Assembly (NCBI GenBank): GCA_017454355.1
Contig: JAFTDD010000089.1
Coordinates: 1-40,796, forward strand
Origin: Muribaculaceae bacterium
GTDB lineage: Bacteria; Bacteroidota; Bacteroidia; Bacteroidales; Muribaculaceae
Length of the DNA stretch: 40,796 bases
Reading direction: 5' to 3'
Below, piece by piece: positions 3,150-38,278 of the stretch; the first letter of the stretch is position 1, and every line of letters begins with the position of its first letter. The position numbers were made by a program, and so were the translations under genes. The notes under the pieces are model-generated. The model was not told the origin of the DNA, did not search any database, and was given only the letters and a program-made list of their open reading frames with translations.

Positions 3150-3180
3150 ACTTCGTACTTCGTACCTCGTACTTCGTACT
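3150..3180. repeat. Heptamer array (ACTTCGT)x4 upstream of manA
   Basis: Four 7-bp units ACTTCGT, one with a single change (ACCTCGT), end directly before the manA -7 box, so the array occupies the -10 to -45 region of the promoter. The same heptamer (as AAGTACG) precedes the methyltransferase gene at 9935-9962 and lies inside pdxB at 6521-6569. Confidence 0.85.
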
Positions 3181-3187
3181 TTTTTCG

Positions 3188-5555: not shown

Positions 5556-5864
5556 AACACGAATATCCATTAATATCCATTAATTGTAGACAATCATTAT
5601 ACTCTTGATTTGGATGATGTAGGGCCTGGCCTTGGCCTGGCCGCCCATCGACAACGGTTAGCCCCGTTAGGGGCGACAGAAACCGCGTCGACAACGAGCG
5701 GGGACGGTTCTTCTGTTTCACAGCTTGCTGCTGTGAAACAGAAGAACCGTCCCCTTGTCGCTAATAGATTTTTGATAGTTTTCCCACACCCCGTCGCGAC
5801 CGAATAAGTCCGCTGTGCGGTGAATGTAGGGACACAATTCATTGTATTAATGGATATTCGTGTT
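5556..5864. repeat. Mosaic repeat region between tyrS and pdxB, bounded by 20-bp inverted repeats
   Basis: The ends AACACGAATATCCATTAATA (5556-5575) and its exact reverse complement (5845-5864) make perfect 20-bp terminal inverted repeats around about 270 bp without a gene. Inside are a TGTAGGGCCTGGCCTTGGCC block (from 5618; also at 26155 and reversed at 35831), an AGCCCCGTTAGGGGCGACAG block (about 5660; also at 27650 and 27768), the 55-bp palindrome at 5700-5754, and a GTAGGGACACAATTCATTGT block (from about 5826). It looks like nested small repeats, perhaps a MITE-like unit. Confidence 0.75.
5700..5754. terminator. GGGGACGG...CCGTCCCC palindrome, copy 1 (possible bidirectional terminator)
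   Basis: A perfect 25-bp stem (5700-5724 with 5730-5754) and a 5-nt loop, beginning GGGGACGGTTCTTCTGTTTC. Two further copies at 33386-33439 and 38218-38278 also lie between convergent genes. Similar palindromes are known as REP-like elements in other bacteria. No T-run is attached, so termination is inferred from position only. Confidence 0.7.
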
Positions 5865-6885
5865 AATAAAAAAGGTGGGGCTCGTGGCGGAGGGTGTAAG
5901 TGTTGCGGAGGGTCTCGAAGGCGGCGGGTTGTGACTTGAGGGCGGCGGTGTCGGCCAGCGGGTCGTAGCCAAGGGCGTCCCACGTGAGGTGCTCGATGCC
6001 GGTGGCGGGCACGTCAGGCCAAGCGATGTCAAGGTTGAGGCCAAAATGGGTCTCGAGCGCCTCGAGCACCATCGCCGCGCCGCGTTGCTTACCCTCGAGG
6101 CTGTAGCCGGCGATGTGCGGCGTGGCGACCATAGCGCGCTCCAGCAGCGGCAGCGACAGGCGCGGCTCGTCCTCCCAGCAGTCGATGGCCAAGGCCAGCG
6201 AGGACGGCGCCTCGAGCAGAGCCGCCGTGTCGCACACCGCGCCACGTGCCGCGTTGAGCAGCAGTCGGCAACGGCGCGCGCGCGCCAGTGTCTCGCGGTT
6301 AATCAGATGACGGGTAGCGTCGGCGCCGGTGTGTGACAGCGGTACGTGCAGCGTAATCACGTCGGCGCGCTCGAGCACCTCGTCAAACGTCACGAAGCCG
6401 TCGTCGCCCTCGCGTCGAGCGCGCGGCGGGTCACACAGCAGTACGTCCATACCCAGGTCGGCGGCCCATCTGGCCACAATCGACCCCACATGGCCCACTC
6501 CGACGACCCCGACAGTCTTTCGTTGTTCGTTATTCGTACTTTGTACTTCGTACTTTGTACTTCGTACTTGGCGCATCGCGCCCATCACCCATTGCGCCAC
6601 GGCGGGCGCGTTGCAGCCGGGTGCCGAGGCCACGGCGATGCCGTGGGCGGCGCACCACTCGCGGTCGATATGGTCGGTGCCGATGGTGGCTGTGGCCACT
6701 ATCGACACACGGCTGCCCTCGAGCAGCGCCGCGTCACACCGCGTGCGCGTTCGCACCACTACCGCGTCGGCATCGCGCACCACAGCCGGCGTGATCGCTT
6801 CCGGCGGCACACTCTCCACCACGGCGTGGCCGCGCAGCGCGTCGGCAACAAAGGGCACATGGCTCTCAACAATAACCTTTTTCAT
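5863..6885 (-). CDS. pdxB: Erythronate-4-phosphate dehydrogenase
   Basis: Oxidises 4-phosphoerythronate in the DXP-dependent route to pyridoxal phosphate. The 340 residues show the D-2-hydroxyacid dehydrogenase layout: an N-terminal substrate domain (SIVATATIGTDHIDREWC), the Rossmann motif GVGHVG (129-134), HVPLSHTGADATRHLINRE-type catalytic region, and the PdxB-type C-terminal dimerisation piece ending in FETLRNTYTLRHEP. Between QWVMGAMR and RKTVGVVG, residues about 106-121 (VRSTKYEVQSTNNEQ) are encoded by the ACTTCG-type heptamer array at 6521-6569; this is an insertion in the loop before the nucleotide-binding fold. No sure promoter is seen upstream. Confidence 0.88.
   Translation of the reverse strand: MKKVIVESHVPFVADALRGHAVVESVPPEAITPAVVRDADAVVVRTRTRCDAALLEGSRVSIVATATIGTDHIDREWCAAHGIAVASAPGCNAPAVAQWVMGAMRQVRSTKYEVQSTNNEQRKTVGVVGVGHVGSIVARWAADLGMDVLLCDPPRARREGDDGFVTFDEVLERADVITLHVPLSHTGADATRHLINRETLARARRCRLLLNAARGAVCDTAALLEAPSSLALAIDCWEDEPRLSLPLLERAMVATPHIAGYSLEGKQRGAAMVLEALETHFGLNLDIAWPDVPATGIEHLTWDALGYDPLADTAALKSQPAAFETLRNTYTLRHEPHLFY
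6521..6569. repeat. Seven heptamers inside the pdxB coding sequence
   Basis: Seven consecutive 7-bp units: CGTTGTT, CGTTATT, then CGTACTT alternating with TGTACTT (five units). This is the same unit family found in the manA and methyltransferase promoter regions. On minus it encodes VRSTKYEVQSTNNE. 49 bp is not a multiple of three, so additional bases must have been gained or lost for the frame to be kept. Confidence 0.85.
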
Positions 6886-9891: not shown

Positions 9892-11155
9892 AAGAAAAGA
9901 TCTCTAATGATTTGAGACCACAAAGGTACAAAATAAGTACGAAGTACGAAGTACAAAGTACGAAGTTTTTCGGGTCACTCGGCAAGTTTGGTGTGAAGTT
10001 GCCTTTTTTGGTGGCACCACCGGCAATGATAATGTCGCCGCTGGGGGTCAACGTGGGTTGTGAATAGCCTGCCTCGGGCACTGGCCGGCTGACGTGCAAC
10101 GTCATCGGCGCCGTCCGTCCGTCGAGGGCCGGCGCATAGCCGACCTCAACAATATAGAAGCGGCGGGTGGCGTCTATGCCCACGAGGTAGGCGCGCTGTG
10201 TGCTGCGGTCGGCGATGACCTCTGAGGGATAGGTGATGCTGTCGCCGCGGAACACACGGGGAATGGGCGCCGACAGCCTCAGCAGGGCGAAGGACGGCTC
10301 GCTGTCCGTACCTCCGGTGACGCGCATCAGAGCCATCTCGCCTTGGGCATTCTCGACCGTGATGAGGTAGTCATAGACTCCGGAGGCTTCGTTGCCGATG
10401 AAACTGTTGGAACTGCGGCGCTGTGTGTGGACATGACGTGGGCGCCACGTCTGAAGCAGTGGTGGCCGCAGGCTCCCGCCTTGCAGCCGGTCCACAATGA
10501 CGCTGTCGAGAGGGTCACCTCTGGTGTCGACGGCTCCGAAGATGACGGCATCGTCAGGTGCCGTCTGCAGCACGCAGGGCTGCGAGCGTTGCTGTGCTGT
10601 GGCGGCCAGGGCCACGCATTGACGCTCGCCATTGAACATCTCGGTGGCGTCGCGCTCGTACTAGTTGCCGCTGATGACGACCTTGCCGCCGCCCAGCGCT
10701 GTCCCGTCGGCATAGGCGCGTTTGGTGTCGAGACACCCGAACCCTTCGAAGGTGTGCGTCGCGGGGTCGTACAACTCTAGGGTGAATGTCTGTCCTATGC
10801 CTAAGGACTGCTCATGGCCGCCGGCGAGGAGGATGCGGCCTGTGTGAAGAGGTACCATCAAGGCTTGGTCGTGGGTGTACACCATCGGCATGACATGCCA
10901 CACGCCATTGCTGTAGCGTTCGGCCGTCGGCGTAGGCACAAAGCCATGTGTGTGACCGCCAAAGACCACAATCTCGCCACCCGCTGCCACTGTGGCGTGG
11001 CCCGCACGGGCGATGTTGAGGTCTGGCAGCCGCTGCACTGGCATCTCCACCACGGGACAACCGTTGCCGAGGCTGTCCGCGATTGCCGCTGCCCGCGACG
11101 GCAGCGACAGACAAAGGGTGAGACACAAACTGATGATAAGACGCTCGATAGCCAT
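9869..11155 (-). pseudogene. Secreted kelch-repeat protein interrupted by an in-frame TAG and altered 3' end
   Basis: Two pieces in the same frame form one gene. The first (11155 to 10661) has a signal peptide (IERLIISLCLTLCLSLPSRA) and kelch units such as GHATVAAGGEIVVFGG, GRILLAGG and GGGKVVISGN, then TAG at 10663-10661. Reading continues with YERDATEMFNG and ends in SGDIIIAGG. Related proteins usually have Trp at this place (GNWY), so a single TGG to TAG change is likely. After about residue NFTPNLPSDPKN the frame runs through the heptamer array, the next gene's promoter and 23 bases of that gene, so the true C-terminus is also lost. Start 11155 was chosen because the promoter -7 box is at 11163-11170. 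Stop-codon readthrough is a less likely alternative. Confidence 0.75.
9921..9962 (-). promoter_or_regulatory. Methyltransferase promoter: -7 box with heptamer array upstream
   Basis: On minus, TACCTTTG (9928-9921) lies 30 bases before ATG 9891. Directly upstream, at 9935-9962, are four AAGTACG/AAGTACA heptamers, the reverse complement of the units upstream of manA. The arrangement (array, TACCTTTG, short leader, ATG) is the same at both genes. Confidence 0.75.
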
Positions 11156-13432: not shown

Positions 13433-13510
13433 GTTGACCGTTGACCGTTGACTGTTGACCGTGCCGCGCGCCCTCGCGCCGGCCGCTGCGGTCAACGGTC
13501 AACGGTCAAC
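13433..13510. repeat. Inverted heptamer arrays (GTTGACC)x4 ... (GGTCAAC)x3
   Basis: Four 7-bp units at 13433-13460 (one is GTTGACT) and three inverted units at 13490-13510 flank a 29-bp GC-rich centre, so the block can fold as one long hairpin or pair in several registers. It fills the 101-bp gap between the lipoprotein gene and the SpoU methyltransferase, ending 10 bases above the latter's ATG. It is structurally like the GGTTGAG composite elements, with a different unit. Confidence 0.85.
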
Positions 13511-17577: not shown

Positions 17578-17759
17578 CGTTGAGGGGTTGAGCGTTGAGA
17601 GGTTGAGCCAATCGCTGTTGCGATTGGGAAGGAATGTAGGGTCCGGCAAAGACAAGGCAAGCCTCGTCCCTACAACCTGACTGCAAGCAGAGACAAATCA
17701 ATTCTCTCCGAGCGCGTCAGCGCGAGGCTCAACCTCTCAACCTCTCAACCTCTCAACCT
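17578..17759. repeat. GGTTGAG composite element, copy 1 (dut leader)
   Basis: The left array CGTTGAG/GGGTTGAG/CGTTGAG/AGGTTGAG (17578-17607) is followed by the stem CCAATCGC (17608-17615)/GCGATTGG (17620-17627), a TGTAGGG-type middle, a CGCG-TCAG-CGCG mini-stem (about 17713-17724) and the right array (CTCAACCT)x4 (17728-17759). The two arrays are inverted repeats. CTAACGACTA words on both sides may be duplicated target or heptamer remnants. Other copies: 26105, 31437, 35716. Confidence 0.85.
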
Positions 17760-17773
17760 CTAAACGACTAAAT

Positions 17774-18214
17774 ATGATTACAGTGAAAGTTGTCAACCGT
17801 TCGCCGCACGCGCTGCCGTCGGCGGCCACCGCGCTGAGCGCGGGCATGGACCTGCGGGCATGGCTGCCCGAGGGACCGCTCACGTTGCAGCCGCTCGCGC
17901 GCGCCCTGGTGCCCACAGGCCTGTTTATCGAGTTGCCCGCCGGCTATGAGTGTCAGGTGAGGCCACGCAGCGGGCTCGCCCTCAAGCGCGGTCTGACGGT
18001 GCTCAACACGCCGGGCACGATCGATGCCGACTATCGCGGCGAGGTGGGCGTGATTTTGGTAAACCTGGACGCTGAGCCGCAGACCATCGCCGACGGCGAC
18101 CGCATCGCCCAGATGGTGGTGGCGCGCCATGAGACTGTTGAATGGCGGCCCGTCGACGCCCTCGACCACAGCGACCGCGGCGCCGGCGGCTTTGGCCACA
18201 CCGGCCGCCGCTAA
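17774..18214 (+). CDS. dut: Deoxyuridine 5'-triphosphate nucleotidohydrolase
   Basis: Hydrolyses dUTP to dUMP and pyrophosphate, keeping uracil out of DNA and feeding thymidylate synthesis. The 146-residue trimeric-type enzyme shows all five motifs: SAGMDLRA (I), RPRSGLAL (II), [14 protein letters not shown] (III), GDRIAQMVV (IV) and the C-terminal [11 protein letters not shown] (V). Start ATG follows the composite repeat element closely, which therefore sits in its mRNA leader. The next gene starts 62 bases downstream with its own promoter. Confidence 0.96.
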
Positions 18215-23975: not shown

Positions 23976-24083
23976 GAACCCTAGGAATCCTAGAAACCCT
24001 AGAAACCCTAGGAACCCTAGAAACCCTAGGAACCCTAGAAACCCTAGGAACCCTAGAAACCCTAGGAACCCTAGGAACCCTAG
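23976..24083. repeat. Tandem array of twelve 9-bp units (G/A)AACCCTAG
   Basis: Twelve consecutive units from 23976, one with a change (GAATCCTAG); GAACCCTAG and AAACCCTAG alternate almost regularly in the middle, so there is an 18-bp higher-order unit. Two degenerate A-rich units (24084-24101) follow, then the ATG at 24110. It fills the gap between the TPR and beta-barrel genes and would be transcribed. There are no spacers, so it is not a CRISPR array. Confidence 0.95.
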
Positions 24084-24109
24084 AAAAACAAGAAAAAACA
24101 GAAACGACT

Positions 24110-26089: not shown

Positions 26090-26104
26090 CTGTGAAAGGA
26101 TGAG

Positions 26105-26284
26105 AGGTTGAGTGTTGAGGGGTTGAGCCATTTGCTGTAGCAAATGGGGAGAAATGTAGGGCCTGGCCTTGGCCTGGCCGCGTGCGGAGCCAAATCCATT
26201 ATTCCCGAGCGCGCTAGCGCGAGGCTCAACCCCTCAACTTTCAACCCCTCAACCCTCACCCCCTCAACCCTCACCCCCCTCAAC
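26105..26284. repeat. GGTTGAG composite element, copy 2 (before mtaB)
   Basis: Left array AGGTTGAG/TGTTGAG/GGGTTGAG (26105-26127); stem CCATTTGC (26128-26135)/GCAAATGG (26140-26147); the TGTAGGGCCTGGCCTTGGCC block (from 26155); mini-stem CGCG-CTAG-CGCG (26210-26221); and a right array of CTCAACCC-like units running to 26284, just before ATG 26292. The stem differs from copy 1 by two compensated base-pair changes. Confidence 0.9.
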
Positions 26285-26291
26285 GATATAG

Positions 26292-27536
26292 ATGACTTAC
26301 CGGATTGAGACGCTGGGTTGCAAACTCAACTTCAGCGAGAGCGCCACCATCGGAGCGCGTCTGCAGCAGGCCGGCATCACGCCGGCCTGCGACGGCGACA
26401 TGCCCGATGTGGTGGTGGTGAACACCTGTTCGGTCACGTCGATGGCCGACCGCAAGTGCCGCCAGCAAATCCGCCATCTCACGCGCCTCTACCCCGCGGC
26501 GCTCGTGGTGGTGACAGGCTGCTACGCCCAACTGCAAAGCCGCGAGGTGGCCGCCATCGACGGCGTGGACATCGTGCTCGGCGCCGAGCAGAAAGGCAAC
26601 CTCGTGGACTACGTGCTGGCCGAAATTAAGGAGGGAGGAAAACTGGTGGACGTCAGCCCGCTGCGCGACATACGGACGTTCGCCCCGTCGTGTGAGCGCG
26701 GCGAGCGCACTCGCTATTGGCTCAAGGTTCAGGACGGCTGTGACTACTACTGCAGTTATTGCACTATCCCGCGCGCTCGCGGCCGCAGCCGTAGCGGCTC
26801 CATCGCCTCGCTCGTCGACCAGGCACGCGCCGTGGCCGATGCCGGCGGCCTCGAGATTGTCATCACCGGCGTGAATATCGGCGACTTCGGCAAGAACACC
26901 GGCGAGCGGTTTATCGACCTGCTGCGCGCCCTCGACGCCGTCGATGGCATCGCACGCTACCGCATCTCGAGCCTCGAGCCGGACCTGCTCACCGACGAGA
27001 TTATCGACTTTGTGGCCGCCTCGCGGGCTTTCATGCCACACTGGCACCTGCCGCTGCAAAGCGGCAGCGACACCGTGCTGCGCCTCATGGGTCGCCACTA
27101 CGACGCCGCCCTGTTCCGCGACCGTGTGGAGCGGGTGCGACGCGTGATGCCCGACTGCTTCATCGGCGTCGACGTGATGACCGGCTGCCGCGGCGAGACG
27201 CCCGAGTGCCACCGCGAGAGCCTCGCCCTGCTGCGCGACCTCGACGTGCAGCACCTGCACGTGTTTCCCTACAGCGAGCGTCCCGGCACACGCGCGCTGG
27301 CTATTCCCTACATCGTCAGCGCAGCCGACAAGACGGCGCGCGCCCGCGAGTTGCAGGCCTTGAGCGACCGGAAGGAGGCCGAGTTTGCCGCACGCTTTGT
27401 CGGCACCGTGCGCCCTGTCCTGTTCGAGCACCCCCACGGTGCCCCCGTCATGCACGGCTACACCGACAACTACATCCGCGTCAGCCGTCCCGCCGACCCC
27501 TCCCTGCTCGACCGCCTCGTCCCCGTCACCCTCTAA
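26292..27536 (+). CDS. mtaB: tRNA t6A37 methylthiotransferase MtaB
   Basis: Radical SAM enzyme that adds a methylthio group to t6A37 in ANN-decoding tRNAs. The 414 residues show the MTTase N-domain (YRIETLGCKLNFSES, VVVNTCSVTSMADRKCRQQ, VVTGCYAQL with cluster cysteines), the radical SAM motif C150-x3-C154-x2-C157 (DGCDYYCSYCTIPRARG), and SLEPDLLTDE. The C-terminal TRAM-like part is short (VLFEHPHGAPVMHGYTDNYIRV). The leader is occupied by a composite repeat element; no separate promoter was recognised, so it may be read from the TPR/beta-barrel operon. Confidence 0.95.
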   Translation: MTYRIETLGCKLNFSESATIGARLQQAGITPACDGDMPDVVVVNTCSVTSMADRKCRQQIRHLTRLYPAALVVVTGCYAQLQSREVAAIDGVDIVLGAEQKGNLVDYVLAEIKEGGKLVDVSPLRDIRTFAPSCERGERTRYWLKVQDGCDYYCSYCTIPRARGRSRSGSIASLVDQARAVADAGGLEIVITGVNIGDFGKNTGERFIDLLRALDAVDGIARYRISSLEPDLLTDEIIDFVAASRAFMPHWHLPLQSGSDTVLRLMGRHYDAALFRDRVERVRRVMPDCFIGVDVMTGCRGETPECHRESLALLRDLDVQHLHVFPYSERPGTRALAIPYIVSAADKTARARELQALSDRKEAEFAARFVGTVRPVLFEHPHGAPVMHGYTDNYIRVSRPADPSLLDRLVPVTL

Positions 27537-27597
27537 CCCCCCACATCCACGCGGATTATTAAACACCAATAACCATAAATTCTCCATTCCGCCAACC

Positions 27598-28160
27598 TGT
27601 AGGGACAGAATTTATTCTGCCCACACCGCGCGTGGAGGACGAAGCGTTAGCCCCGTTAGGGGCGGCAGCCCGTAGGCGGGATTTGTTGACATTAATTGTC
27701 GGTGGCCCCGTCAACTTGTAGGGGCAGAATTTATTCTGCCCACACCGAGCGGGGAGGACGAAGCGTGAGCCCCGTTAGGGGCGACAGTCCGTAGGCGGGG
27801 GCGTTAGCCCCCGTAACCATCGCGTGCCCCCACACAAATATAGCCCCGTAGAAGGGCGCGCAGGCCGTCGTCGGCGTTTCTGTCGCCCCTACGGGGCATT
27901 GATTGAGGAAAAAATCACGTCATAGTCACGGGGGCTAACGCCCCCGCCTATGGGCTGTCACCCGCTCCGCGGGTTTGGCGACGCCGCCCCTTGCGACTCT
28001 TATCGGCCGCGCCGCCGCGCGTGAAATTCTCAAAAATCTAAATTTGTTGACTTTAATTGTCGGCCGTTGGGGTGGGCAGAATGAATTCTGCCCTACATTC
28101 TCGGCATCGAGGATTTATCGGCCGCGCCGCCTTCGGCGGGAAATCTTTCAAAATCTTTTA
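27598..28160. repeat. Repeat-filled 709-bp gap between mtaB and the next lipoprotein gene
   Basis: No gene. Direct repeats of 83 bp (27598-27680 and 27717-27799) differ at six positions; each contains a GGGCAGAAT/ATTCTGCCC palindrome and an AGCCCCGTTAGGGGCG block. A third palindrome is at 28074-28093. Two copies of TTGTTGAC(A/T)TTAATTGTCGG (27683-27703, 28044-28063) and two of TTATCGGCCGCGCCGCC (about 27999 and 28115) also occur. The blocks recur at 5660 and 35771, so this is a mosaic of dispersed families. Confidence 0.85.
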
Positions 28161-28217
28161 TGGTAATTCGCGTTTATAAATTTGCGGTGGAATAGTGGGC
28201 GCTTGGCGTTTTTTTTG

Positions 28218-28225
28218 TATATTTG
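28218..28225 (+). promoter_or_regulatory. -7 box of the two-lipoprotein operon
   Basis: TATATTTG after a T-run, 20 bases before ATG 28246. No clear -33 box at the normal distance. Confidence 0.55.
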
Positions 28226-28245
28226 CAGGATAAAAGTGTTGAACG

Positions 28246-29301
28246 ATGGGCATACGTGTGTTTTACATACTGGCGGCGGCGCTGACGGTGGCGCTGGCGG
28301 CGTGCAACCGTGGGCCGGGCGACGTGCCCGGCGCGGTGCCGGCAGCGGTGTACTATTGGCGGACGACGATGTCGCTCGACAGCGCGGAGCGGGCCTTTCT
28401 CACGCGCCATCATGTGGAGAAGATGTACGTGCGCTTCTTCGACGTGGTGCTGCGCGGCGGCCACGCTGTGCCCAACGCCACCATCACCGGGTTAGACTCG
28501 GTGCCGCCGGGTGTGGAGGTCGTGCCAACGGTGTTTATTATGGAGAACAGCCTGCGCGCCGACAGCGCGCTGCTGCCCGGGCTGCTGGTCAAGCGCGTCA
28601 AGCAGATGTGTGAGACCCACGGCATCGCGGCGCGCGAGTTGCAGGTGGACTGTGACTGGACGCTGCGCTCGATGCCGCTCTACTACAAGATGCTCGAGGC
28701 GATGCGCAGTCAGACCGGGGCTCTCGGGTGGCGGCTGAGCGCGACGGTGAGGCTGCACCAGTTGTCGATGCCGGCGCCGCCGGTCGACTACGGCGTGCTG
28801 ATGATATACAACACGGGTGACGTGCGCCGCCGCGACGGCACCGACCCCATCCTCGACGCGCGCCATGTGGCGCCCTACCTGCGCCGTCTGGCCGACTATC
28901 CGTTGCCGCTGTGCGCGGCCTATCCGTGCTTCACTTGGCAACTGCTCTACGCCCACGGCGACGGCCACTTCAAGGCCATCCTGCGTGACGACGACTTGGG
29001 CGACACCACCCGCTTCCGCGGCATCTCAACCCTCAACTCTCAACCTCTCAACCTTTCATATCTGGTGACGCGCAACAGCGAGTTGCCCGAGAGCAACAGC
29101 GACGGCAGCGCCTCGACGCGTATGATGGTGGGCGACACGGTGGTGGTGGCGCGCCCCACCGAGCATGACATCCTCGCCACGCGCGACGCTCTGGAGGCCC
29201 ACCGGCCGGGCATCAACCGCCAGGTGGTGCTCTACAGCATGAACAGCAATCAAATGAAACATTATAACGACAGCCTTTATGAAAAGATTTTCAATCCTTA
29301 G
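28246..29301 (+). CDS. Lipoprotein of unknown function, possible TIM-barrel-like, with in-frame repeat insertion
   Basis: 351 residues with a lipoprotein signal (lipobox L17-A-A-C20). The body (AAVYYWRTTMSL, VEKMYVRFFDVVL, RELQVDCDWTLRSMPLYYKM, YGVLMIYNTGDVRR) has alternating strands and helices reminiscent of glycoside-hydrolase-like barrels, but no family can be named with confidence. Residues about 260-270 (STLNSQPLNLS) are encoded by four CTCAACC-type units at 29025-29054. The 3' end overlaps the next gene by 23 bases, so the two are translationally coupled. Confidence 0.75.
   Translation: MGIRVFYILAAALTVALAACNRGPGDVPGAVPAAVYYWRTTMSLDSAERAFLTRHHVEKMYVRFFDVVLRGGHAVPNATITGLDSVPPGVEVVPTVFIMENSLRADSALLPGLLVKRVKQMCETHGIAARELQVDCDWTLRSMPLYYKMLEAMRSQTGALGWRLSATVRLHQLSMPAPPVDYGVLMIYNTGDVRRRDGTDPILDARHVAPYLRRLADYPLPLCAAYPCFTWQLLYAHGDGHFKAILRDDDLGDTTRFRGISTLNSQPLNLSYLVTRNSELPESNSDGSASTRMMVGDTVVVARPTEHDILATRDALEAHRPGINRQVVLYSMNSNQMKHYNDSLYEKIFNP
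29025..29054. repeat. CTCAACC array inside the lipoprotein coding sequence
   Basis: Units of 7, 7, 8 and 8 bp (CTCAACC, CTCAACT, CTCAACCT, CTCAACCT) total 30 bp, exactly ten codons, so the reading frame is unaffected. They are the same units as the arrays of the composite elements at 17728, 31554 and 35881, without the central stems. Confidence 0.88.
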
Positions 29302-31432
29302 CATTGTGGCGCTCGCCGCGTGGACGGCGGTGATGGCGTGCGGCCCGTGGGCGCGGCCGGACTACTACGTCTTCAGCGTGTACCACCGCTCGCAGTTGAG
29401 CGACGCGGCCCTCAAGCCGATGTATGACTTCTGGCAGCAGTATGGCGGCGCGGACAACGTGAGCACATGGGATGTTGACGGCCTGTCGCGGGTGTCGCCC
29501 GACGAACTGCAGACCACCGACAACCCCATCGTTCAGGCTGCGCGCACCCGTGGCGACAGCGAGATGATGGCCTACCTGCGGCAGTTGACGTCCTACCTGC
29601 AGTTGGCCGAGCCGGCCGACACGTGGGACTACCCGTCGCGCTCGCAGCAGGCCGACCGCAAGGCTCGCCTGCAGGCCATCGAGCAGGCCGCGTGCGCCTA
29701 CAAGGGATCGCGCCTGCGCGACCAGTATGCCCTGCTCACCGTGCGCGCCCTCACCCGCCTGGGCGACGCCCCCGGCGTGATTGACTATTGGGAGAAAACC
29801 TTCAGCCGCCGGCCGCAGAGCGTCTATAGCGACATGGCGCGCGGCCTTTATGCCTGGGCGCTCATCAGCCAGGGACGCCAGCGCGACGCCATCAACGTCT
29901 ACGGCGAGATGGGCGACATGACCTCCATCAAGTGGCTCATGGAGAAGAAGCGCAACCTGCGCGGCATTCGTGACGAGTATGCCGCCGACCCCAACTCGCC
30001 GGCGCTGCTCTTCCTCGTGCAGGACTTTGTGAACAACACTGTCGATAGTTACACCCATCAGCGCGCGTTCCTCGCCCATTACGACGACGAGGAGATGAGC
30101 GCCGCGACCGCTCAGACTCAGGTCGAGATCACGGACTTTATCAAGTTCTGCCGTCAGGTGGTGGATCAGGGCAAGACCCGGTGCCCGTCGATGTGGATGG
30201 CGGCGGCGGGTTTCGCGGCCTATAAGGTGGGCGACACGGCGCAGTGCATGCCGCTGCTCAACCGTGCCGTCACGCTCGACGGCACGCCGCGTATGCTCGA
30301 CAACGCGCGCGTGTGCCGCATGGTGGCCAGCGCCGCCGTCGAGCACGACCTCACCGTGGGCTACGACAACCGCCTGCTGGGCGAACTGAAGTGGCTGCGC
30401 TCCAAGGTGGAGAGCGAGCCCACGCTCGACAACGCTTACGGCTTCCACGGCAACCACTATATGGAGGTGCTGTCCAATTTGGTTTACGACCGGTTGGTGC
30501 CCTTCTATCAGGAACACGGCGGCGCGAGCACGGCGGCCGCGCTCTGCGGCGCGCAGCAGGCCTACGAGCGCAGTTACAACAGCGAGGACAACGGCTACTA
30601 CGCCAACGGCGACTACGACTACCTGCTCGACCGCATGACCAGCCAAGAGATGATCAACTACCGCGCGATGATCCTGCGCGGCGGCGACGGCGACCTCGAC
30701 CGCTGGGCCATCGCCCAACTCGACACGGACAACGACCCGCTTTACTTCATCGACCGCATCGGCACCAAACTGATGCGCGAGGGCGAGTTCCGGCAGGCTC
30801 TCGAGTGGGTGGAACAGGTGCCGGCGAGTTACGTCTCGCAGCAGGGCATCAGCCGCTATATGGCGCGCCGCGACTACACGCTCGACCGCTGGTTTGTGCG
30901 CCAAGTGGTGGACCGCGACTGGAACGATATTTACGAGCCCACGCCCACCGCGCTCTACAGTAACCAGAAGGTGAACTACTGCCGCGACGTGCTGGCCGCA
31001 CAGAAGACCGTCAACGACAACCCCAACGACGCCACCGCGCTCTACCGCCTGGCCTCGCTCTACTATCAGGCGAGTTGGTGGGGAGACTGCTGGTATCTGA
31101 CCAACTACTCGTGGAGTGGCGCCGGACCGCAGGACTACCCGATGCAGAAGGACCTGCGCATGGAGGCCGTCGCGCTGCTGCTGCGCGCCAAGGCCAATGT
31201 GGGCAAGGACCGCGACCTGCGGCAGGCAATCCTCTACGCGCTGGCATTTATCCCCTACGACACGCCATACGTCACCTACGAGTACGACGCCGACTATAAC
31301 CTCATCACCAAGTATAACTACGACTCGCCGGGCTATAAGGCGTTGGCCGAACTGGCCGACTTCTACGCCGCCAACCGCGGCAACGTGGCGCCCTACATCA
31401 GCCGCTGCGACGTCCTCAAGAATTTTATGTGA
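29279..31432 (+). CDS. Large lipoprotein of unknown function
   Basis: 717 residues with a lipoprotein signal (lipobox V18-M-A-C21). It is rich in tyrosine and aspartate and largely helical by composition; repeated segments such as ATALYRLASLYYQASWWGDCWYL and RLRDQYALLTVRALTRLGDAPGVIDYWEKTF suggest TPR-like solenoid units in the second half and around residue 140. No catalytic motif is visible. Overlap with the preceding lipoprotein implies that the two products work together, perhaps as a surface or periplasmic complex (inference). It ends four bases before the composite repeat element. Confidence 0.75.
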   Translation: MKRFSILSIVALAAWTAVMACGPWARPDYYVFSVYHRSQLSDAALKPMYDFWQQYGGADNVSTWDVDGLSRVSPDELQTTDNPIVQAARTRGDSEMMAYLRQLTSYLQLAEPADTWDYPSRSQQADRKARLQAIEQAACAYKGSRLRDQYALLTVRALTRLGDAPGVIDYWEKTFSRRPQSVYSDMARGLYAWALISQGRQRDAINVYGEMGDMTSIKWLMEKKRNLRGIRDEYAADPNSPALLFLVQDFVNNTVDSYTHQRAFLAHYDDEEMSAATAQTQVEITDFIKFCRQVVDQGKTRCPSMWMAAAGFAAYKVGDTAQCMPLLNRAVTLDGTPRMLDNARVCRMVASAAVEHDLTVGYDNRLLGELKWLRSKVESEPTLDNAYGFHGNHYMEVLSNLVYDRLVPFYQEHGGASTAAALCGAQQAYERSYNSEDNGYYANGDYDYLLDRMTSQEMINYRAMILRGGDGDLDRWAIAQLDTDNDPLYFIDRIGTKLMREGEFRQALEWVEQVPASYVSQQGISRYMARRDYTLDRWFVRQVVDRDWNDIYEPTPTALYSNQKVNYCRDVLAAQKTVNDNPNDATALYRLASLYYQASWWGDCWYLTNYSWSGAGPQDYPMQKDLRMEAVALLLRAKANVGKDRDLRQAILYALAFIPYDTPYVTYEYDADYNLITKYNYDSPGYKALAELADFYAANRGNVAPYISRCDVLKNFM

Positions 31433-31436
31433 TGAA

Positions 31437-31583
31437 AGGTTGAGGGGTTGAGCGTTGAGAGGTTGAGCGTTGAGAGGTTGAGCGTTGAGAGGTTGAGCCT
31501 CGCGCTATCGCGCTCGGTAATAATACATTTTTCCCATTTGCGATAGCAAATGGCTCAACCCTCAACGCTCAACCCCTCAACCT
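31437..31583. repeat. GGTTGAG composite element, copy 3, inverted core (before rnz)
   Basis: Left array of eight units alternating 8 and 7 bp, i.e. a 15-bp repeat AGGTTGAGCGTTGAG (31437-31497); then the core in opposite orientation to copies 1-2: CGCG-CTAT-CGCG (31501-31512) and stem CCATTTGC (31534-31541)/GCAAATGG (31546-31553); right array CTCAACC/CTCAACG/CTCAACCC/CTCAACCT (31554-31583). This is the short form: the TGTAGGG-type middle block is missing. Confidence 0.9.
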
Positions 31584-33385: not shown

Positions 33386-33439
33386 GGGGACGGTTCTTCT
33401 GTTTCAGCCGCGAAGCGGTGAAACAGAAGAACCGTCCCC
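33386..33439. terminator. GGGGACGG...CCGTCCCC palindrome, copy 2 (possible bidirectional terminator)
   Basis: A 54-bp hairpin. The first 20 bases GGGGACGGTTCTTCTGTTTC are identical to copy 1 and pair perfectly with the end; the inner part is a CCGC/GCGG stem with a small mismatch. It lies between the convergent DUF3298-like gene (stop 33380) and the ATPase gene (stop 33460). Confidence 0.7.
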
Positions 33440-33459
33440 GCGTGCCGCAAGGGAAAAGG

Positions 33460-35715: not shown

Positions 35716-35917
35716 AAGGTTGAAGGTTGAGAGGTTGAGAGTTGAGGGTTGAGAGGTTGAGCATCGAAGTGGGCAGAATAAATTCTGCCCCTACAAGCGA
35801 TTGGGGATGATGGATTGGACATCGCTCGCGGCCAGGCCAAGGCCAGGTCCTACAATTATCCCTAGCGCGACAGCGCGAGGCTCAACCTCTCAACCTCTCA
35901 ACGCTCAACCTCTCAAC
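35716..35917. repeat. GGTTGAG composite element, copy 4, with nested palindrome (between hpt and adk)
   Basis: GGTTGAG-type array (35716-35761), then a GGGCAGAAT-AA-ATTCTGCCC palindrome (35771-35790) and CCTACAA placed where the left half of the CCAATCGC stem should be; the right half GCGATTGG survives (35797-35804). Then the GGCCAGGCCAAGGCCAGG block (35831-35848), CGCG-ACAG-CGCG (about 35867-35878) and the right array CTCAACCT (from 35881). The hpt stop codon (35915-35913) lies within the array. Looks like one repeat inserted into another. Confidence 0.85.
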
Positions 35918-38217: not shown

Positions 38218-38278
38218 GCGCGGGGACGGTTCTTGTGTCTCACCGCTCAGCGGCTGAGACACAAGAACCGTCCCCGCG
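38218..38278. terminator. GGGGACGG...CCGTCCCC palindrome, copy 3 (possible bidirectional terminator)
   Basis: Left arm GGGGACGGTTCTTGTGTCTC and its complement (38222-38275) with a CCGCT/AGCGG inner stem; GCGC extends the stem on both sides. Compared with copies 1 and 2, the two arms have changed together (TTCTTCTGTTTC to TTCTTGTGTCTC), keeping the pairing. It lies between convergent nnr and the leucine-rich gene. Confidence 0.7.

Follow-up and report, generated by a model that had tools for sequence, protein, structure and literature searches.

Cyanobacterial STRRs are arrays of heptamers in intergenic DNA. Arrays of the heptamer TAACTGA occur in Beggiatoaceae, Cyanobacteria and five Bacteroidetes, in the sections of PMC4679880 cited here. 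REPINs and BIMEs are doublets of REP sequences that go with RAYT transposases (PMC3116915, PMC3733652), and published REPs also lie near the 3' end of the upstream gene (PMC3733652, section 15). The loop and the stem mismatches are determinants of recognition by TnpA-REP (PMC8266576). Among Y1 transposases, the signature Y---Q--HH marks subclass 1.2, whose members generally lack typical terminal structures according to the cited part of PMC6006769. Extra-stable mini-hairpins form in DNA when a GNA or GNNA loop is closed by two or more G-C pairs (PMC4686876).

We analysed a repeat element in a 40,796-nt stretch of a Muribaculaceae genome, referred to here as the window. Four copies of a GGTTGAG family sit at 17578, 26105, 31437 and 35716, where an earlier note on this DNA had placed them, and GGTTGAG is enriched in the window: it occurs 39 times against 4.57 expected (s.d. 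2.45), with 0/100 shuffles as high. In the whole genome (G000, 2.7 Mb), the 15-nt junction GCGCGAGGCTCAACC has 50 exact matches, and at least 67 bipartite elements were parsed. This number is a minimum because only stretches around junction matches were parsed and the parser missed copies, window copy 4 included.

Every copy has two inverted hairpins, usually an AT-type and a GCGC-type one, between inverted 7/8-nt GTTGAG arrays. The order from the outside in is often GAAAG, array, hairpin, spacer, second hairpin and inverted array; GAAAG, found just outside the array at 23/134 ends, is common but not universal. Array units are GTTGAGAG, GTTGAGGG, GTTGAGC and GTTGAGG, with some GTTTAG, and four units is the commonest array size (57/134 ends). 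These head-to-tail 7-nt units in intergenic DNA resemble STRR-type arrays, here with a spacing that is mostly 8 (314/468 steps, with 7 in 124/468). The inverted arrays are terminal inverted repeats, a MITE-like feature, and the commonest exact 29-nt end recurs at 6/134 ends. AT-type stems are mostly ATTTGC, with AATCGC, ATTCGC and ATTGGC also present, and the GCGC-type hairpin has an internal tandem mismatch. The orientation of the hairpin pair on the contig strand is mixed (33/67 versus 28/67); of the remaining copies, three carry GCGC hairpins at both ends, one carries AT hairpins at both and two are unclassed. Core length across the 67 parsed copies is 32–145 nt. The minimal core measures 56–57 nt, and longer cores (85, 97, 121 nt and others) hold further palindromes. 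A GTAG-type palindrome sits within a hairpin loop in 8/67 copies, and this subfamily, common to both sister genomes described below at one orthologous site, propagated as a unit.

Copy 1 (+ strand) begins with a left GTTGAG array (17579–17607), followed by the AT-type hairpin CCAATCGC-TGTT-GCGATTGG (17608–17627), the GCGC-type hairpin CCGAGCGC-GTCA-GCGCGAGG (17708–17727) and a right CTCAAC array (17728–17765) that ends 8 nt 5' of the start codon of the ORF at 17774–18214. Copy 2 (+ strand) has its left array at 26101–26127, the AT-type hairpin CCATTTGC-TGTA-GCAAATGG at 26128–26147, the GCGC-type hairpin at 26205–26224 and its right array at 26225–26284, the last being shorter in the sister genome G016. 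In copy 3, arrays on the + strand (31438–31497, eight units, and 31554–31582) enclose a minimal 56-nt core of GCGC hairpin, linker and AT hairpin on the − strand (31498–31553), inverted relative to the orthologous G016 site. Copy 4 (+ strand) comprises a left array (35716–35761), an AATCGC-type hairpin (35762–35804) with a GTAG-type palindrome, GGGCAGAATAAATTCTGCCC as read here, in place of its loop, a GCGC-type hairpin (35861–35880) and a right array (35881–35917).

The compensatory stem change first noticed in these copies is genuine: CCAATCGC/GCGATTGG in copy 1 becomes CCATTTGC/GCAAATGG in copies 2 and 3. Copy 4 has kept half of the copy 1 stem, retaining GCGATTGG alone because the GTAG-type palindrome occupies the loop of that hairpin. 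A CGCG-NNNN-CGCG mini-stem had also been described; the motif is there, but as the inner portion of a longer hairpin-like CCGAGCGC-GNNA-GCGCGAGG with an internal tandem G.A mismatch, not as a separate structure. A solo half-array of four units with a TGAAAG outer motif lies on the − strand at 29024–29059, within the ORF at 28246–29301. It adds six or seven residues relative to 9/11 relatives, the remaining 2/11 carrying a longer stretch of other sequence at this position; G016 has the half-array too.

The GCGC hairpin pattern is found in 2/101 same-genus genomes, G000 and its sister MAG G016, where the element load is similar. This pattern, a stricter screen than a covariance model, occurs in 0/99 of the other same-genus genomes, and a covariance-model scan of these 99 under stricter filters gave no convincing copy. 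Weak covariance-model matches in one of them, G001 (E 5.8e-4; second 0.0099), were rejected as resembling one hairpin that lacks arrays. Less specificity is seen with the bare array pattern GGTTGAGNGGTTGAG, which occurs in G000, in G016 and 1–4 times in 9/99 other relatives. A 23-base pattern scanned against 84,980 species genomes, a collection that may not include the element's own genome, matched only CAMHQD01, which is G016; the same pattern matched nothing among viral contigs, and copy 2 as a query had no match in plasmid and phage collections. An Rfam search of the window at gathering scores returned two tRNAs and nothing else, and no title or abstract listed from the open-access library searched describes the element. 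The earlier characterization of a mobile, structured element of no obvious known family is supported: at least 67 copies are dispersed, with the core in two genomes only among those searched, some sites are occupied in one sister and absent in the other, further copies revealed more covarying stems, and Rfam recognized only the tRNAs.

Comparison with REPINs and BIMEs (PMC3116915, PMC3733652; sections cited) reveals extensive likeness: two inverted small-loop palindromes around a spacer that varies, a scatter of many copies outside genes, compensatory changes in the stems, a position close behind stop codons and confinement of families, often, to one or a few species. Unlike them, the element has no GTAG at the hairpin foot, no copy-flanked cognate transposase among the loci examined for it, and inverted 7/8-nt arrays outside its hairpins. 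With the foot defined by the parsing rule as GTT(G/T)AG-CC, GTAG within 2 nt outside it was counted at 0/134 ends. Since neither the GTAG tag nor a flanking transposase was found, we regard the element as a REPIN-like variant and not as a REPIN. With TAACTGA arrays it shares 7-nt tandem units in gaps, often by start or stop codons, and the absence of some from the same place in close relatives; those arrays, however, are direct, with a single inverted set in the cited part of PMC4679880, whereas here facing arrays surround a repeated two-hairpin core. Subterminal DNA hairpins recall IS200/IS605-type ends, which are recognized single-stranded, and the subclass 1.2 signature is found in Y1 proteins of this genome; unlike IS200/IS605, as described in the sections used, the element has symmetric, inverted ends, and none of the 67 parsed cores is long enough for a gene (PMC6006769). 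We hold at roughly even confidence that the element is a REPIN-like miniature non-autonomous DNA family, probably moved in trans by a Y1 transposase.

The two sisters were compared at orthologous sites. Across window positions 26292–31432, G016 is 93–95% identical in the main pieces, and other genus members match the first gene of this region at 68–74%; over a longer stretch, identity to G016 drops to 77–93% in places. Thirty G000 copies were located in G016 loci, 28 of them shared and two absent (one at a site without an insert), and 4 of 32 G016 copies located in G000 stretches were absent, although presence is over-counted because G016 loci were mostly chosen for carrying elements. The single site without an insert has no clear target duplication. 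At absent sites the other sister may hold an unrelated array (the 9-mer AACCCTAGR, inverted GTGAATT or TTTCTTAGA) or coreless arrays. An AACCCTAGR array is also found in the window at 23977–24086, where the G016 gap has a different short-unit array.

Shared sites have been remodelled as well. The core is inverted between sisters at 3/28 (window copy 3, C22:13975 and C61:8525); the inverted core of copy 3 is nearly identical in both, and core lengths differ at the other two (97 versus 57 and 86 versus 57). One end is swapped between sisters at C84:26976, and one 4-nt loop is flipped. Window copy 4, which is not among the 28 shared sites, has arrays in both sisters but both hairpins differ, and at the site of copy 1 the upstream sequence differs in G016.

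Short arrays are abundant in the genus, with 62 period-7 arrays in 441 kb (the window plus five genomes), where a single shuffle gave 2. Of 49 intergenic-like arrays in the five other genomes, 18 lie within 150 nt of a similar stretch in inverted orientation and 2 of a direct one, counting each member of a pair separately and excluding the window because the crude 'intergenic' test put 17/23 of its arrays into long open frames. The paired units listed there differ from GGTTGAG. Given these inverted pairs in other genus members, inverted arrays look like a wider habit of the genus; what sets the two sisters apart is the two-hairpin core. Within the window, inverted GTTGACC heptamer arrays surround a GC-rich centre at 13433–13510, like the bipartite design with a different unit, and a CGTACTT heptamer array lies at 6512–6584 within the ORF at 5863–6885, with similar arrays at 3150–3181 and 9935–9966.

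Such arrays, and their tendency to pair in inverted form, are what would be expected had the element arisen and spread with no transposase at all, through slippage during replication, switching of the template at palindromes and gene conversion between intergenic arrays of similar sequence. The entirely different 7–9-nt arrays that orthologous gaps of the sisters may hold, and the local exchange of hairpins, loops and core orientation, point the same way. We nevertheless find this account rather doubtful as a whole. At least 67 dispersed copies have a specific two-hairpin core in two genomes only among those searched, a composite subfamily (8/67) has multiplied as a unit, and transport of the core to distant sites goes beyond local slippage. 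Slippage and template switching clearly contribute to the present forms of the element.

Stem covariation in the element is real. Among 16 minimal copies, 3/8 pairs of the AT hairpin and 1/7 array pairs are changed on both sides; the GCGC hairpin is invariant and therefore uninformative. Two-sided changes in the AT hairpin and array together occupy 6/336 cells; only 4 of 500 shuffles give as many. On the strand that leads out of the hairpin into the array, 110 of the 125 hairpins that could be scored have a GNNA loop, in 108 cases GNYA, and 123/125 have C-G and G-C as the two pairs nearest the loop (134 ends in total; 8 of the 9 unscorable carry an inserted palindrome). The element is built of two inverted GC-GNNA-GC mini-hairpins, a short spacer and inverted 7/8-nt arrays. 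A DNA energy model finds AT-type hairpins stable (z about −6); support for the GCGC type is weak (z about −1.4), with the inner four pairs alone paired, and the GNNA strand is favoured by only 0.4–0.6 kcal/mol.

RNA tetraloops favour the GNRA class. Because the loops here are GNYA, not GNRA, and match the DNA mini-hairpin class, we place the function in single-stranded DNA, which this loop signature fits better than RNA. Two further observations point to DNA: palindromes near Y1 genes of both genomes have the same type of loop, and between the sisters cores are inverted and sites gained, lost or filled with other 7–9-nt arrays. Gene context bears on the same question. Using codon-scored gene calls trained on the window, neighbours could be assigned to 62/67 copies: 56 are co-directional, 4 divergent and 2 convergent. 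Plain longest-ORF calls (12/47 convergent) were rejected, as they picked spurious antisense ORFs. Hence the earlier rule of co-directional and never convergent neighbours holds for most copies but is looser than proposed. For the 56 copies in co-directional gaps, median distances are 6 nt from the upstream stop codon to the beginning of the array and 22 nt from its end to the downstream start codon.

This arrangement makes transcription, which the earlier note had offered as a perhaps, possible, while the loop signature speaks for DNA; overall its interpretation is partly supported. The arrangement also favours an RNA structure, transcribed between cistrons and under selection for its part in mRNA processing or in decoupling neighbouring genes, as do the stem covariation and the folding of the four window copies as RNA (−85.5 to −114.1 kcal/mol). 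We consider such a structure improbable. Its loops are not of the RNA class, DNA palindromes predict covariation equally, and elements are lost or replaced between sisters. Core orientation relative to the co-directional genes is mixed (36 versus 20, p = 0.04), and most gene pairs are co-directional anyway, the share among copies not being clearly different from that of window gene pairs (22/29; Fisher p = 0.10). A site-specific switch, in which a recombinase flips the core and alters expression of the next gene, would account for the three inverted cores and the near identity of that in copy 3 but is very unlikely, as two of the three inverted sites differ in core length, which replacement by another copy also fits, and the inverted arms suffice to explain flips.

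Returning to movement by a Y1 transposase, we found 10 Pfam Y1_Tnp matches in G000 and 9 in G016, two of which are pieces of one gene (L084, L086). A script detected Y---Q--HH at 12/19 of these loci, missing the L084/L086 gene. Near Y1 genes at all 19 loci, GNA/GNNA loops cap 29/48 distinct palindromes against 12/80 in five other members of the genus (400 kb; p about 2e-7), although palindromes within one locus, or across orthologous loci, are not independent. The proportion is 26/35 for the 13-locus Y---Q--HH set (L084 included) and 6/18 for the six Y1 loci outside it, one of which overlaps a set locus; in the element's own genome, away from arrays, a GNNA-type apex is found in 7/28. Given the 7/28 and 6/18 backgrounds, the GNNA apex could reflect a general stability of DNA palindromes. 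Eight of the nine Y1 families looked at have GNA/GNNA palindromes, and the Y1 proteins of L079–L084 and L236–L242 show the Y---Q--HH signature and have such palindromes on their flanks, despite the description of subclass 1.2 as generally lacking typical terminal structures.

Element hairpins were found near 0/19 Y1 matches, in flanks reaching about 1.5 kb per side, some ended by contig edges, and in the L083/L240 family alone does a bare GTTGAG array abut its palindromes, in both sisters. The link to a transposase is therefore circumstantial. The L083-type protein is 98% identical in G016, with a best match of 48% outside the two sisters (61 genomes, E ≤1e-10), a restriction that is suggestive only because, within these 61 genomes, a control, the L081-type protein, has relatives of 42–63% in 13 others (E ≤1e-25). 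At a further locus (L085, G000:C31:90208; 1143–2606), clusters of CGTC-type palindromes (GGGGACGGTTCTTTTGTTTC) flank a 289-aa Y1_Tnp frame that contains a YIHLNP motif. CGTC repeats apparently have no dedicated transposase in the cited part of PMC3733652. CGTC-type palindromes (GGGGACGGTTCTT...) also lie near gene ends in the window, at 33386–33442 and 38222–38278.

Y1 transposition is the likeliest mechanism, with a probability of about one half. On an exposed single strand, for example the lagging strand, each element end would fold into a DNA mini-hairpin whose loop and closing G-C pairs would let one of the encoded Y1 HUH transposases of Y---Q--HH type recognize it in trans. The element would then be copied into gaps, mostly just past stop codons. 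Its arrays would lengthen and shorten by slippage, and template switching or recombination may flip the core and exchange hairpins between copies, because the arms are inverted repeats. Dispersal, propagation as a unit, gain and loss between sisters, the hairpin class, the loops near Y1 genes, the position behind stop codons and the flips count in favour of a Y1-moved REPIN-like family. Against it count the absence of a Y1 gene flanked by element hairpins in the flanks covered, the missing GTAG foot, the one empty site without a clear duplication, the chance that GNNA apices are simply stable in DNA palindromes, the dependence among palindromes of the same or orthologous Y1 loci, and the small strand difference and weak GCGC hairpin in the energy model. 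More speculatively, Bacteroidales transposases of the subclass 1.2 type may each own a GC-GN(N)A-GC palindromic family, and the GGTTGAG element may be an orphan REP-like family that captured heptamer arrays as its ends and flips in place because those arrays are inverted.

The element joins two puzzles that are usually kept apart, intergenic short tandem arrays and palindromic REP-like repeats. In the two uncultured sister species, the same sites can differ in whether the element is present, which way its core points and which hairpins it carries, and the comparison so shows the manner in which repeats of this kind spread among genes and flip. Should the loop signature indeed be what subclass 1.2-type Y1 proteins recognize, these transposases, which have no known DNA partners, would gain testable substrates.
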